A stretch of DNA of 64,000 nucleotides from Syncephalis fuscata (taxonomy: Eukaryota > Zoopagomycota > Zoopagomycetes > Zoopagales > Piptocephalidaceae): positions 1 through 64,000 of the forward strand of contig JAHLTZ010000027.1 in NCBI GenBank assembly GCA_025786725.1, written 5' to 3'. Positions 16,465 to 44,093 of this stretch are shown piece by piece; position 1 is the stretch's first letter, and each line of letters begins with the position of its first letter. The notes beneath the pieces are model-generated. The model was not told the DNA's origin. It did not search any database and saw nothing but the letters and a program-made list of their open reading frames with translations. Both the position numbers and the translations under genes were made by a program.

Positions 16465-17542
16465 TTAGCGTCTCCAGCGTTTTCCGCGTAAATCTTCAGA
16501 GAGACGGCCTCGATTGCCACCACAGCAGCTGGTGAATACATCCCATCCCATTGCGACACAATATGATAAAAATGCCATAACACCAAAGAATATTGAAGTA
16601 TTGAAGAAATCGCACCTAATAGTTAATAATAGAATAAATGATTAGTTAACAATGTTATTAATATAATTTGCCATTTATAACTTACCATCCATTGAGTGAT
16701 CCAATATGACATTTTTGAGTACCAATAATAATAAAAACATCAGCGCCCCAGATGCAGGTCATAATAAGATCGATGAGAAAAATGGTGTACTGGCCAATAT
16801 CCTTGCCAGGTTTTATCCAGCGGAATAGCATAAAACAGACAAGAGATAAACTAACAGCACAAGATATAGAACTGACGGCATAGTATAAATCGACAGCAGT
16901 ATGGCCGGAGAATGGACTATCTTTACCGGAATACTATTAAACGAAATAATCTATTAGTTGGCGTCTATTAATAGCACTATTATATTTGCTTACCGAGGAA
17001 GCACCAGCCAAGAATCCCAGTGTGGCTATTGAAAATACAAGTTGCGCTGAACGAATACCAAAGATAATCCAGTTAGGTGCACGACGCGCAATGGGTGCTG
17101 GAGGAATACCACTGCCGTTAGTGGGTCCAGAATTGTTTAACTTGCCGTCAGCACTGCCTGCTCCTTGGAAGTGAGGGTCATCAGGTGAGAGTGGTGCGGC
17201 TAGTCCGTTGCCACCCGTGTGCTCTGCAATCTGTGCAGGAGCAGGCACCACGACCACTGTAGTGTCCTCAGCCTTACCAACCTCACTGCCATCAATGTAG
17301 TTTGTTTCTACAGTTGTAACTGCATCATACGAAGTGGCATAGGCATTGGGACGGACATAATGTGCCGCGTCAGGCATACTCAGCTCCGTCTGGCCAAGAC
17401 TGACCGTGGAGGCTGCTTCTGTTGCAAAGGTCGAAGCGGGTGCGTAGGCATTAAGCGATGGAATAGTGGGTTCTGGCATGGGACCAGTCCACGCTATTGA
17501 CGCTCTCGGGTCGTCCGGGGATTGGTTAGAGTGCGTGGCCAT
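16465..17542 (-). CDS. MARVEL-like four-helix membrane protein
   Basis: Exons on the minus strand are 17542-16994, 16933-16686 and 16615-16465, with introns of 60 and 70 nt and all phases agreeing, giving 315 residues. The N-terminal 150 residues are Ala/Pro/Thr-rich and hydrophilic. Four hydrophobic segments follow: IRSAQLVFSIATLGFLAGAS, a second ending VSLSLVCFMLFRW, IFLIDLIMTCIWGADVFIII, and one beginning NGWCDFFNTSIFFGVMAFLS. The tail is basic (GRLSEDLRGKRWRR). Intron positions and the GASS and SLNGWCDF sequences match the gene at 15083-16175, so the two are inverted duplicates facing each other across 290 bp. No frame breaks. Function unknown; plasma-membrane organisation is the usual role of MARVEL proteins. 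Confidence 0.85.
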
Positions 17543-22123: not shown

Positions 22124-24933
22124 TTAGCGATGTACTGGATACCATTTCTTGATAGCTTGCTGTATTCGATGTTGCATATCAAATAAACCGTGTATTTCCA
22201 GTGTTTCATCCACTTTCTGTAGTAATCGATAGCTGGGTTTATAGCCGGCTTGAGGCATTCTATTTAGTAGAATACCTAACGATTTATCAAATACATGCAG
22301 ACGACGATACGTTTTCTCCATCGATTGCCAATGTCGCTCGTTAAGCTTGGCACCATCGGCCAATCCAGCGTCGCGTATCTCTTCAAGTCGTTTAACAGAT
22401 TTCATAGAGTTGGCTAGATTGAATAACACAGACAAACTAGCATCATTAATACGGAATCGGTGCTGTTTACGTGCACGTAAATAGAATTGCCAACCTTCAT
22501 GGCCTTGATGAGCATAGACGTAGGCTTGGATTACACATGTGATAATATATTGATTACGTTGCAGGTTATGCCTGCTAGCATACTCGTAGCAACGAAGCAC
22601 TGAATCAAGCTGTCGTTGTTTACCAAGTACATTAATAACACTGGTGTAATGGGCGGCACTCATGGTTAACGTGTATTTTTCGATAAACGCTAGCATATCC
22701 ATAATATCTGTGATAGATTCTTTTTGTAATCCATCTGCTAGTAATAGACCCGTTGATGTCTCGGGAATAATGACTCCATGTTTACGACATCGAAGTATTA
22801 GTTGTGCGGCATTAGCTGGTTGTCCCGCCTTAATATAACCTTCGACAATCTTTAATCCCAAAGCACCAGGACCAAGCCAGCCAGCTTCTTCCAAGAATTG
22901 CATCTGAGGCCGTGTTGCTAAATAGGTCATTAATAAACGCTCAGCACCCATTGGATCCATTAACTTTAAGTGACTTTTAATCATCGCAGATAGAATCACC
23001 AAATTAATAGGTATTCTAAATGTACGTATATCCTTTAGTAAATCTAATACACCTGACCAGTCTTCTTGCTCAAATGGCACCCATTGAATCATACCAATCA
23101 AGTGATGATTAACACAGTTTAAATTACGCATTTTTGTGTAGATATCAAATGCTGCCGTATAATTCTTTTGCGATCGATAGGTAGAAATAAGCTGCCCAGC
23201 CAATCCAATAATAGGACAGATATCGAGTGTTTCACGGGTAGATGCTATATAATCATGCTTGACATCGTTAAATAGTAGTTTTGTATTTGTTACTGTATCG
23301 CTGTTTGCTTTATCCACAAATGTATGTTTTGATATTTGTATGATATCGTCAATTGGATCATCTTCCATTGATACTTCATTCATCACTGTTCTTGAATTGT
23401 AGTGTTTGTCAAATGCCAATAGCATCTTATGCTGTAAACGATGTACTTTTCTTAGCATTGATGTCAACTCTGTGTCGATAATTGATTCGCCATTAGGTCC
23501 AAGGTAATTACCGTCATATTGTCGATGAAATGCATATAAAATCATTTCATTAAGTAAATTGGCTACCTCTTTTACTTTTTGTTGTTGTAAAAGTGTAATA
23601 GCATAACCATAGTCAAGTTGAATATCACGACTAGTTTGTTGATGTCCTTGTTTACTCACATTATAGACCAATTCAACATCATTAAATCGTTTTAATTTTG
23701 CCAATCTAGTCATAAGTATTTTTAATGATGCAGTGTCGAGTGTGCCACCATCTGTGTAAACTGTCTTGAAAATATCTAATGCCTTATCGACTGGATTTTT
23801 TAAATTGGATTGAAAACTAATTTTACATTGTTTTCCAAGTAGTAGATGGAACATATGTGAGGTCGTATTATAATTTGGTATGCGATGTCCATCACGAATG
23901 GCTGAATAAAGTGCCAGTAAAGTCTCAATTTCTGTCTCATTTGTTATATAAATATTATCAAATAAATCACATTGAGTTTCCGGTAAGATGGAATAACCCA
24001 TGGATAGTGCATCTTGATATAGCTGTAACTTGTCAGGCATAGGACGCCTTGCTAATGCACTTAGGAATTGATTAATACAAGTATTTAACAAAGGATTACG
24101 AAGTTGCAGTATATCATAATAGAGTAAGCGACAGCGTTGATGACCAAAGCCAAACTTTCGATCAATTGTCATTTGAATTTGTTCATTGGCTAGGAACGCG
24201 GTAACCATCGCAGCTACTGCATTGATCCGTTCTCTTAGACCGGCTTCCACACGATACTTTTCATAAACACATATAGCTTTATACGGTTCACCAGTCGTTA
24301 TATGATATCGAATCCATTTAGTATAATGGTCGGGTGTAGGTAGTCGACCATTTTGTGTGTATAAAATGATAAGGAATTTATCAAAGTCAGCAACTTTATC
24401 ATCAAGCATTTGATTAAATAATTTGCCCAATAATTGTGTATTCACTTGCAACAACGATCCTTCTTTAGACAGTTGTTTTATAATTGATGTTACCGAAACT
24501 AAATCGTTTTGCTGTATTGCTGCTTCAAGTTGCTCAATAAGTGCTGTACATTTGGCTGATGTCATTGAATTTTGGTTATCGGCATGTCCAATGTATCAGA
24601 ATAGAATGGATCAATCATTGGCGGCTGACAGTCGATATCATTATGTTGAATATCGTCTTCTACTGATTGAAATAGTTTTTTGTGTTGTTTAGGTCGAAAG
24701 CCATCATTTCTAACAATTTTACCCGTCTGTGGCAATGTAGCCGTCTTGTTTTCCTTAGTATTTTTTGTTTCATCCAAATAGTCTATTAGTTGCAAAAACG
24801 ATGCATCCGATGACATAGAACATCGTGTTATACGTGTTGGATAGTTAGGATTTAATCGTAGAATGGGTATCGACTGCAATCTGAATAGCAATTGCAGCCG
24901 GCTACGTCGAAGTAAAAAAGAATGAGCAAACAT
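22124..24933 (-). CDS. mitochondrial pentatricopeptide-repeat (PPR) protein
   Basis: Two frames overlap by ATGA at 24562-24565. The upstream one (24933-24562) begins MFAHSFLLRRSRLQLLFRLQ, a typical basic presequence for mitochondrial import. The downstream one (24565-22124, 813 residues) is a chain of helical hairpins with PPR character, for example ALDIFKTVYTDGGTLDTAS, AAFDIYTKMRNLNCVNHHLI and SVLRCYEYASRHNLQRNQY. One added A in the AAAA run (24570-24573 on plus) fuses them into a single 936-residue protein. That is far more likely than two genes, because fungal PPR proteins act in mitochondrial RNA metabolism and need a presequence. The specific target RNA cannot be told. It ends 124 bp before the ATG of the phosphatase-like gene, in the same direction. 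Confidence 0.8.
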
Positions 24934-40620: not shown

Positions 40621-40967
40621 ATGGCCAATACGATGGACACCTCGTTAGAAAGACGTGGCCGAGCTGCACCTATGGAATTCGAGTATCAAATGCCACGTAA
40701 GCCTTCAGCGACCTTTAACCAAAGAACCTCCGCCAATACTGGTACATTGTTGTCACGTACATCACTACTTGCTCGTTCCAATACTGGTCCGCCTGACGCT
40801 GCTTCTTTTGCCGCAATGGCTTCAACCACTACTGATGTACCGGCGAGATCAGTACCCACCTTATCAACCACCACCATTACAACAGCATATTATTCTGATC
40901 AAGACGAAAACAATGACGCAGACTATAGCGATACATCGGTAGGTAACAGATGTGAATAATTGTGAAT

Positions 40968-41001
<34 letters not shown>

Positions 41002-42390
41002 AATAGATTCCATGTTAACTAGCAATTCCAAATAGAGAGGACGTGGTCGACACTTAGTATTGCCACAAGATCGTAATAACAGTAGTCGCAGTAGATCACG
41101 TTCTAGAGATAGAACGTCATCAACCGCAACAACATCAAACCAACGAAGAAAGAAATCAGCTTATACAGCTTATCGTGGTGGTTCATCTGTTAGAAAGTCT
41201 AATCGTCGACGTGATGCTAATACGGATCGTTCATCAAGTTGGAAGTATTGGTTTAATTATTTACATCCAAATAATCATAATATTGGACCAGCACTTAATT
41301 GGTGGTAAGTTAAAATGATGTAATAAATAGTATTATAAATACAATATTGTATTTTATAACGATATATAAATAATAGGACAATTAGTCGAATAATAAGCAT
41401 TGCTCTAGCATTGCTTGCTGTTAGAACACTTTATGTAGCTATTGAGACAGTACGTACAGATGTACAATTAAAGGCAAATGATCGTATGCTAGGTAAGTCA
41501 TAGTATAACTAATAAATAACAAATTTACTTATAATTTACAATGTTAATAGAGATTGAAAAAACAATTAGTTTTTGTCGGGCTGAATACGAAGGAAATAAA
41601 TGCGATATTCCTGATGGTCGTCCAATTTTACTAAAAAATTGCCCTACTTGGAAAGAATATCCTTTTTACTACTTAATTAGTCATTTAATAAGCTACCAAG
41701 TGTAATATATCGTTAACCAATAGATATACGTGTATGGAACAGGATTCAAGTGTGTTTGGAAGGTAAATTAATACATGATAAATTACTAATGGATACAATA
41801 ATGTTAATGCTAATATAATTAACTAATTTAGATCAAGACTTGTAGCTGAAGCATTTGCTGAAATTATCGAGGCATTTATGCAACCATTATCTATGCGTAC
41901 TATTGTAAGCAGTTATTAATGCTAATACAATTACTTTTATTTACATTATAATGTATATTAATACTATCCTATTTAGTTGATCTTTGTTCTAACTACCTTT
42001 GGTGTATTGGCTTTACTCAATATCATTTACACTCTATTTATTCGTAACTACAATTCACACCATCCTTCTTCATCTTCGGGCTATCCTTTAATGCAGCAAC
42101 ATCATACGCATCCCATGCATCTAGAAGGACCTAGTGGACAAAAATTAAGAATACAAGAAGTTTGGCATGAAACGGAAGTTGATCATGAAATACACTCAGG
42201 CGACAGTGAAGATGACAACGACGATCGCCGCTCTCGACATAATCGCTTATCGTCTAGGCGCGGTCGTAATAGTAATGGCACTAAACGGAAAGGACGACGA
42301 CAAGATCGAGCTAGTCATAGTCGTAGTCGTAGTCGTAGTCGTAGTCGTACACGAACCACTATACGTTATGTAAACGACACAGAATATTAA
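40621..42390 (+). CDS. BRL1: Brl1/Brr6 nuclear-envelope protein
   Basis: Seven exons: 40621-40938, 41036-41304, 41377-41492, 41551-41656, 41730-41762, 41832-41904, 41977-42390; 442 residues. After a long basic Ser/Arg-rich N-terminus comes helix 1 (ISRIISIALALLAVRTLYVA). The Brl1/Brr6 luminal domain holds four Cys (FCRAEYEGNKC, then NCPTWKECM), the stretch VFGRSRLVAEAFAEIIEAF, helix 2 (LIFVLTTFGVLALLNIIY) and a hydrophilic tail ending in repeated SR dipeptides. Brl1 and Brr6 act at the inner nuclear membrane in nuclear-pore assembly and lipid homeostasis. The fourth intron (41657-41729) is AT-AC; only that splice gives the family's W-x-x-C-M spacing. The ATG at 40621 is the first in a frame following a purine-rich leader. 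Confidence 0.9.
40971..40999. repeat. (AT)n microsatellite within BRL1 intron 1
   Basis: Uninterrupted AT dinucleotides inside the 97-nt first intron. Confidence 0.95.
41657..41729 (+). other. U12-type (minor spliceosome) AT-AC intron in BRL1
   Basis: The 73-nt intron begins ATATCCTTT, the textbook U12 donor, and ends in AC. A branch-like ATCGTTAAC (7 of 9 to TTCCTTAAC) at 41709-41717 puts the branch A 13 nt from the intron end, the short distance typical of U12 introns. No GT donor in this stretch gives a frame that fits. Splicing GA|AT...AC|G gives TGG AAA GAG TGT ATG (W-K-E-C-M), the family's conserved spacing, and keeps phase with both neighbouring exons. The AG at 41722-41723 also keeps frame but inserts two residues. 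Confidence 0.85.
42316..42352 (+). repeat. CGTAGT hexanucleotide repeat encoding Ser-Arg dipeptides
   Basis: About six near-perfect AGTCGT units near the 3' end of BRL1, translated as an SR-dipeptide run just before RTRTTIRYV. Confidence 0.9.
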
Positions 42391-42472
42391 ATAGGTACTA
42401 TATTATATTAAATATATATACTTTATATACTAGCACGACGACTGTAATTGTTTGTTAACATGTCATAAATGG

Positions 42473-44093
42473 TTATTGCGCGTCAATCATCTCCCATAGA
42501 CCACAGTCAACGCAGCCTTCTTCAGGTTCACATACTGGCACGTCATCCCACTTTTTAATTACTTCTTCAATAACATCCATAATACGATGGGTTCGTATAT
42601 CTGATTTCCATCCCCATTTTGCTGTAACATCATAGACACAGGTGCGTCCTGAATGGCATTTACTATTCAATCACATAAGTAAAAGTATTTGTTGTCTATA
42701 AAATACTTACGATTCCATTGCATAGCCTGCATAATAACACGAAGAGCCTGCACCCTATTATAAGTAATAAAAAACATAATATGTCAATGGCTATTTATGT
42801 ATTCAGTCGATATTACTACTTACTGTGCATACACCCATGAAAATAGGATCAGCAGTATGACCAAAATGCCAAATAGGCAGCTTTTTGTAATCAATGGCCG
42901 GTGGCATTGGTAAATGAAGACGACGAGCAGGTAATTGATCGCCAGGTGCCTCAAAGGTTACAGTGGGTATACGAAATACTTGACCAAGTAAAGCAGCCAC
43001 TGATCCACCTAATGAATGGCCCACCATCCAGATTTGAGCCTCTGGATAGGTAGCACTTAATTCATTAAATAGATTCTATTTATTAATAATAATTATTAGT
43101 AAAATCTACTTTGTTTTGTCTCTATTATACCTACAAGTGTCACCCCATAGTAAATATTATCCGGTGTTACACTTTCTTCTAAACATGTCTGGTTGCACTT
43201 ATTACCTGACATGTAGCAGCCACAACAGTTGACCAAGAGTAATCAACTCGGGCACAGCAGCACGATAACAATAAATTGTCCTTTTATACAATGTTAATTT
43301 ATTTAATAACAATCATTTATAATAACCACTTACGTTAAGCTTATCTCGTTCAGTCGATGGACCTCCACTGCCAAATAGACCAATACTTGTTCCCTTGATC
43401 GATATAATAACAATACTTTCACTTTTATCTACAAACACATAGCCTCGTAGTCCATCAGCTTTTTCTTCCCATCCAAAATCTTTAGTCTGTAAAGTAGATG
43501 GTTTTATTATTAAATTATGTTATTTTGTATATTCATATGTATCTTACCATGTTCCAGTCACCGCCTACATCGTGCCATTCAGGTTTGTTTAGTTCAATAT
43601 AGGCATTGTAGGTCATTTCGGCCAATGATACTATTGTATCACGATCAGTTACATCAGGCAGTACCGTTAACTCTTCTTCAGGGAGTCGGGCAAGTCCATT
43701 GGGAAGAAAACCGCCTCCCCATTGAACAGTAGAAATACGACGCTTAATCACATGACCACTTGAGAATACTGCTACCTTTGATGCATCAATAGGTGGTGAC
43801 AGTGTAGGCTTCTTCAGTCCAATGCTCATATTGTCAAAGACATTAAGGTCGCGACGGGCAAAAGCAAGAGCCGTCTTACTGAATGGTGGTGGTGGTGGTG
43901 CATAAAAGGTATGGCGAATATGAAGAGTGGTGTCAGGACTATTCTGTGCGTTGACCACGCCTGGCTTCAGCAATGGCTTTGATAGAATAGTTTGTCGAGC
44001 CGCATTGGCCGGTTCATGCGTACCGGCCAATATAGCAACAGCGACAATACTAATAGATGACAAATAGCTATACAAAGAGAGTGATGGTTGCAT
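42473..44093 (-). CDS. ATG15: Atg15 vacuolar phospholipase (autophagic-body lipase)
   Basis: Six minus exons: 44093-43548, 43486-43334, 43280-43135, 43075-42824, 42754-42711, 42662-42473; 443 residues after bridging one break. The N-terminal signal anchor ([14 protein letters not shown]) is followed by a luminal class-3 lipase fold: [25 protein letters not shown], nucleophile motif [15 protein letters not shown] (Ser about 303), [25 protein letters not shown] (Asp), and [13 protein letters not shown] (His). The Cys-rich end [16 protein letters not shown] is typical of Atg15. It hydrolyses membranes of autophagic bodies in the vacuole after MVB-dependent delivery. The break is at the AA pair 43224-43225 (plus strand); one extra base restores the family's WSTVCGCY, so consensus error is likely. 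The ATG at 44093 is the first in frame. Confidence 0.93.

Follow-up and report, generated by a model that had tools for sequence, protein, structure and literature searches.

Our analysis indicates that positions 41657–41729 of a 64-kb window (the whole stretch of Syncephalis fuscata DNA that was analysed, 64,000 nucleotides) are, almost certainly, a genuine U12-type AT-AC intron that would be removed by a minor spliceosome retained in this fungus. The intron lies inside a BRL1/BRR6-like gene (Table 1). The DNA provides an intron with an exact junction, predicted genes for U11 and U6atac, a probable U12 gene, a predicted U11/U12-25K protein, and similar introns in conserved genes. Retention of U12-dependent splicing in this organism had been proposed in a sequence-only reading of the window, and the RNA genes, the 25K protein and the genome-wide set of introns lend it support.

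Table 1. Coordinates of the BRL1 gene, its predicted U12-type intron, and related features elsewhere in the S. fuscata genome
Feature	Position	Strand	Description
BRL1/BRR6-like gene	40621..42390	+	seven coding exons, 442 aa, spliced frame open
BRL1 coding exons	40621-40938, 41036-41304, 41377-41492, 41551-41656, 41730-41762, 41832-41904, 41977-42390	+	
Two exons with the cysteine-containing Brr6 domain core	41551..41762	+	SFCRAEYEGNKC...NCPTWKE|CMEQD, split by the AT-AC intron
Predicted U12-type AT-AC intron	41657..41729	+	73 nt, phase 2 (GA|G)
U12-type 5ʹ splice site	41657..41667	+	ATATCCTTTTT
Branch site	41709..41717	+	ATCGTTAAC, branch A at 41716
3ʹ splice site	41728..41729	+	AC
KTI12 AT-AC intron (L017)	G000:C46:21885-21943	-	acceptor 22 nt from branch A
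U6atac gene	G000:C243:4451-4610		Rfam match above cut-off

U12-type introns have a donor with the consensus RTATCCTT and a branch site close to TTCCTTRAY, about 10–20 nt before the end of the intron. The BRL1 intron begins with ATATCCTTTTT (donor core ATATCCTTT), which satisfies the donor consensus, and closes with ATATCGTTAACCAATAGATATAC. Its branch site has an exact TTAAC core and one mismatch to TCCTTAAC, and there are 13 nt from the branch A up to the intron end. The donor, the terminal AC and the branch A distance are thus present in the sequence just as the sequence-only reading had described them. Splicing at these sites joins the exon end TGGAAAGA to the exon start GTGTATGG, giving NCPTWKECMEQD at the junction in a frame that is open for 442 codons. 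Retention of the intron introduces in-frame stops.

Within the window, the donor motif by itself is uninformative: RTATCCTT occurs four times, against 5.4 expected. A fuller pattern, ATATCCTTTN{29,59}TTAACN{6,15}AC, which was composed with the BRL1 intron already in view, has a single match in the window, at exactly 41657–41729; among 100 dinucleotide shuffles the mean was 0.03, with three of the 100 holding a match. Neither TTAAC nor TTGAC lies within 140 nt of the RTATCCTT sites at 16797 and 36416. At 23028 (+ strand), ATATCCTTT is followed by TTAAC 81 nt downstream and by an AC end. That site is antisense to a minus-strand frame, and we take it to be a chance match because the minus-strand frame is open throughout the 400 bases read.

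The encoded protein discriminates between possible junctions. The 442-residue BRL1 model matches PF10104 (Brr6_like_C_C) with 104.7 bits (cut-off 25). Among splice-site pairs of the GT-AG, GC-AG and AT-AC kinds whose donor lies in 41620–41699, seven keep the frame and are free of stops. Scored on PF10104, the best of the seven is 41657–41729, with 107.6 bits. The other six score 70.1–98.5 bits: 41657–41717, which ends at the branch site's own AC (98.5), 41657–41696 (92.8), a GC-AG option (87.2), the GT-AG option 41620–41692 (86.8), 41683–41740 (86.6) and 41638–41740 (70.1). The W-K-E-C-M spacing claimed for the AT-AC junction, with phase kept, is borne out by the open frame, by the best PF10104 score and by a public protein model with the same junction. 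The accompanying statement that no GT-AG alternative fits was too strong, since 41620–41692 also keeps the frame and is stop-free. Nonetheless, the chance that this GT-AG intron is used in place of the AT-AC intron is negligible: it would delete the conserved W and one Cys, it scores 20.8 bits below the AT-AC junction, and it conflicts with both the public S. fuscata model and that of S. plumigaleata.

A protein search identified a public S. fuscata BRL1 protein of 309 aa, residues 1–305 of which are identical to those of our model. This protein carries exactly the 41657–41729 junction and reads NCPTWKECMEQD across it. The deposited model runs into the last intron (41905–41976) and ends MRTIVSSY; its early end (VSSY) arises because the last intron has been read as coding. 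The C-terminal exon that it consequently lacks is kept in the S. plumigaleata and Thamnocephalis models. No solved structure matched the public BRL1 protein at E ≤ 1. The minus-strand neighbour of BRL1, at 42460–43480, encodes a lipase-like protein with GHSLGG that, from its translation alone, we presume to resemble Atg15.

A second AT-AC intron can be compared with a public protein in the same way. Our AT-AC-spliced prediction for KTI12 was assembled ahead of the public-protein search and agrees with the deposited S. fuscata protein at all 280 residues (100% identity). Hence, AT-AC introns are spliced in both of the public S. fuscata models examined (BRL1 and KTI12). We infer that the public S. 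fuscata models rest on transcripts.

Some models from related species look wrong at these positions. The S. plumigaleata BRL1 model reads GWKKCMEQD, so that W-K-x-C-M-E-Q-D is common to both Syncephalis species. The Thamnocephalis sphaerospora BRL1 model jumps from RTDVQRK to DPSDFGRAR, without either flank of the AT-AC junction; its PF10104 match begins at profile position 80, and the domain core is missing. For KTI12, the S. pseudoplumigaleata model has DLKISFVPHPPVEGGGLPGR opposite S. fuscata DLKVQLPSR, and its I-S-F is the translation expected of ATATCCTTY in that frame. The residues at the AT-AC intron position are missing from the Thamnocephalis KTI12 model. Basidiobolus KTI12 reads IKVQLPAR, in register with S. 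fuscata. The simplest reading of the broken models is that they hide AT-AC introns that gene prediction bypassed. ATATCCTT donors at the same BRL1 and KTI12 codons in these relatives would mean that the introns are shared. These cases suggest a cheap diagnostic: gene prediction that does not allow AT-AC introns breaks proteins at such sites.

A scan of the S. fuscata genome for U12-type introns, as the sequence-only reading had proposed, indicates that the BRL1 intron belongs to a larger set. We used a strict pattern, TATCCTTN{25,55}CCTTRAC, in which the first donor base is left free and the preceding base therefore works as an internal control. There are 41 matches, against 8 for the pattern read backward. 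The base in front is A at 26 places, G at 12, C at three and T at none, so that 38 of 41 have A or G there. At 56 other TATCCTT sites in the sequences examined, BRL1 and L085/L086 among them, A or G precedes in 22; at least three of these 56 are themselves U12-type donors. An AC lies 9–18 nt past the branch A for 23 of the 26 A-donors and for five of the 12 G-donors (Fisher p = 0.0047), while an AG lies 9–22 nt past the branch A for 16/26 and 9/12, respectively (p = 0.49). Two of the G-donor places (L029 and L049) represent the same repeat-like stretch in two copies and have neither AC nor AG in range. Counting the strict candidates preceded by A or G, the AT-AC share is 26/38. A looser AT-AC pattern gave 60 matches versus 15 for its reversed form, with overlapping readings and repeat copies included in these numbers; the 60 comprise the BRL1 intron and also the L085/L086 intron described below.

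Do these candidates interrupt genes? An open frame spans the junction at 33 of the 41 strict places, where the rule demanded at least 15 open codons per side and an acceptor 9–24 nt past the branch A (AC for an A-donor, otherwise AG). We scanned 30 of these 33 candidates against Pfam (all except L024, L025 and L033), with one peptide each; for L036 and L046, the frame or acceptor differs from the rule's top-ranked choice. In 15 of the 30, a domain above cut-off crosses the predicted junction, which was used unshifted. The crossing domains are OB_NTP_bind, WD40, TRAPPC-Trs85, KTI12, Pkinase, Rpb5_C, FH2, NUC153, La, HECT, SMC_hinge, YL1, CDC45, VPS51_Exo84_N and DHHC, and the shorter side of the domain is at least nine residues in all 15. 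For the WD40 candidate (L013), the shorter-side figure was taken from a related family whose match is longer; the WD40 match proper (49–82) likewise spans residue 66. No domain above cut-off was found in the other 15 of the 30, comprising 13 without any family and two (L020 and L036) with weak matches below cut-off.

The 15 domain-supported introns include nine AT-AC and six GT-AG introns. Two further genes, L085 and L086 (G000:C226:211278 and 287636), are near-identical inverted copies (802 of 864 bases identical, ungapped). Each retains an AT-AC intron that has the BRL1 branch variant, ATCGTTAAC, and whose removal, in phase 2, leaves the frame open. The L085 intron is 64 nt long. The product of these genes is presumably RTF1-like. 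Phases 0, 1 and 2 are represented by 3, 5 and 7 of the domain-supported introns. This spread fits the bias of minor introns away from phase 0 described by Larue and Roy (2023, PMC10639083).

If these introns are removed by a minor spliceosome, the genome should encode its components. We searched Rfam models against the S. fuscata genome (28950602 bases in 299 contigs) and, for each model, 14 control genomes. U11 gave one match of 47.5 bits (cut-off 39), with no control above cut-off and weak matches in three. U6atac gave a match of 37.8 bits (cut-off 33), again with no control above cut-off and weak matches in eight; three further S. fuscata matches to this model fall below cut-off, the best being the ordinary U6 gene. 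U12 gave a single full-length match of 34.6 bits, below its cut-off of 53, and none of the 14 controls had any match. The candidate U12 keeps the branch-pairing GUAAGGA, complementary to the consensus branch with a bulged A, and is probably the U12 snRNA. Compared with the Rfam consensus, the U11 RNA (L002, 1501–1682) carries an extra ~55 nt in its first stem-loop, which are predicted to form two hairpins.

These RNAs could recognize the BRL1 intron directly. The donor segment TCCTTTTT can pair with the U11 5ʹ end AAAAAGGG over eight bases, one of them a G-U, and TCCTTTT of the donor can pair with AAAAGGA of U6atac over seven. By hand count, six of seven positions of U12 pair with the BRL1 branch, bulged A included; an ungapped duplex calculation chose a different register.

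A few AT-AC introns elsewhere are spliced by the major spliceosome, and the imperfect branch site of the BRL1 intron and the failure of the Rfam model to find U4atac would be compatible with that route here. We consider this highly unlikely. The intron has a full U12-type donor with 7–8 bases complementary to the U11 and U6atac of S. fuscata itself. The other five introns of BRL1, all with GT-AG ends, begin instead with GTAAGT, GTAAGC, GTAAAT or GTAGGT. In addition, the genome contains a set of similar U12-type introns.

The search for snRNAs proposed in the sequence-only reading was productive for U11 and U6atac, yielded a candidate below cut-off for U12, and did not find U4atac. The Rfam U4atac model has no match at E ≤ 1 in the S. 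fuscata genome and a weak match in one of the 14 controls. Three patterns built on the U4atac pairing layout did not reveal the gene either. The stem II pattern, complementary to the U6atac that we found, matches three places. One is the U6atac gene, which the pattern picks up as its own complement, and the remaining two do not resemble U4atac when read. The stem I/III pattern has 139 raw matches versus 18 for reversed controls, and the combined pattern has 14 versus 5, both being counts of pattern matches rather than of loci read one by one. The lack of a U4atac recognised by Rfam or by the three patterns, together with a U12 match below cut-off, could mean that this U12-type intron, though real, is served by a minor spliceosome in decay or in altered form, from which U4atac has already gone or in which it has been replaced. 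We regard such decay as improbable, given that many consensus U12-type introns persist in conserved genes and that U11 and U6atac retain the segments that pair with the 5ʹ splice site. Moreover, the model may miss a strongly diverged fungal U4atac, or the gene may lie in an assembly gap. A retained minor spliceosome is the reading in which we have high confidence.

Proteins specific to U11/U12 had also been suggested as a check, and here the outcome is mixed: U11/U12-25K was found, the U11-48K candidate is marginal, and CENATAC had no match. A predicted U11/U12-25K protein is present in the S. fuscata genome, encoded by three exons at C24. It matches PDB 8r7n_B (E = 2.5e-13), and its PF18036 score rises from 38.1 bits for one exon to 60.6 bits for the three exons joined. 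A CHHC finger candidate (L051, G000:C46:339255-339320, minus strand) scores 19.7–21.8 bits (cut-off 21.1), and its best solved match is GTSF1, which is closer than 48K. We do not count it as U11-48K, given a borderline Pfam score and the closer resemblance to GTSF1. The CHHC finger family is above cut-off in one prokaryote control as well. The exons of L051 are apparently joined by a GC-AG intron, as read by eye. CENATAC had no match in the S. fuscata genome in a search that lacked a positive-control match. These three proteins made up the protein search.

We propose that U11 would bind the AT-AC donor and U12 the branch, that U6atac would take the place of U11 at the donor, and that exons 41551–41656 and 41730–41762 would be joined within the Brl1 luminal domain. 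Failure of splicing would be expected to yield a protein truncated at a stop inside the intron.

What is the significance of a minor spliceosome in Syncephalis? The sequence-only reading had presented U12-dependent splicing as restricted to some early-diverging fungi. Such reports do exist, from Rhizophagus, Basidiobolus, Phycomyces and Rhizopus, which makes the case of Syncephalis less exceptional than that reading implied. Syncephalis adds one more species to a pattern already described in early-diverging fungi. Specialists may find interest in the AT-AC majority, the presence in Zoopagales, the U4atac that was not detected, and the breakage of deposited models at AT-AC introns. Among the matches listed in our search of the open-access literature, none that reports minor splicing names Syncephalis or Zoopagales. 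None of the genome papers that mention S. fuscata, S. plumigaleata or Thamnocephalis sphaerospora has splicing in its title, and literature naming the human orthologues of the candidate genes together contained nothing on splicing.

NCBI taxonomy places S. fuscata in Zoopagomycota and Zoopagales, with Syncephalis in Zoopagomycotina. Our results would thus place the minor spliceosome in Zoopagales. This bears on the pronounced loss of minor introns that Larue and Roy infer for the ancestor of Zoopagomycota (PMC10639083), whose main text does not name Syncephalis. We lean slightly towards the view that Syncephalis, and probably other Zoopagales, have an AT-AC-dominated set of minor introns in a phylum for which ancestral loss has been reconstructed.

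Like Syncephalis, Rhizophagus irregularis and Basidiobolus meristosporus are early-diverging fungi with minor introns; 205 and 249, respectively, are reported by Larue and Roy, who describe the full set of four minor snRNAs in Rhizophagus, along with donor and branch motifs of U12 type, and no convincing minor-intron support in Ascomycota and Basidiomycota (PMC10639083). The same paper also assigns Basidiobolus to Zoopagomycota, the phylum of Syncephalis; Syncephalis differs in belonging to Zoopagomycotina. The AT-AC majority among the strict Syncephalis candidates is another difference from Rhizophagus and Basidiobolus; GT-AG is reportedly the majority subtype in most species. Rhizopus oryzae and Phycomyces blakesleeanus resemble Syncephalis in having both AT-AC and GT-AG minor introns, at most 3–4 in Rhizopus and about 20 in Phycomyces according to Bartschat and Samuelsson (2010, PMC2846911), numbers that are not directly comparable with our DNA-pattern counts because they refer to EST-supported introns. 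The AT-AC share is given as about 26% in human and 77% in Blastocystis (196 of 253 minor introns; PMC10639083). Blastocystis therefore shares an AT-AC majority with Syncephalis, from an unrelated lineage, and its minor introns, with a mean length under 42 bp (PMC10639083), are shorter than the Syncephalis introns in BRL1 (73 nt) and L085 (64 nt).
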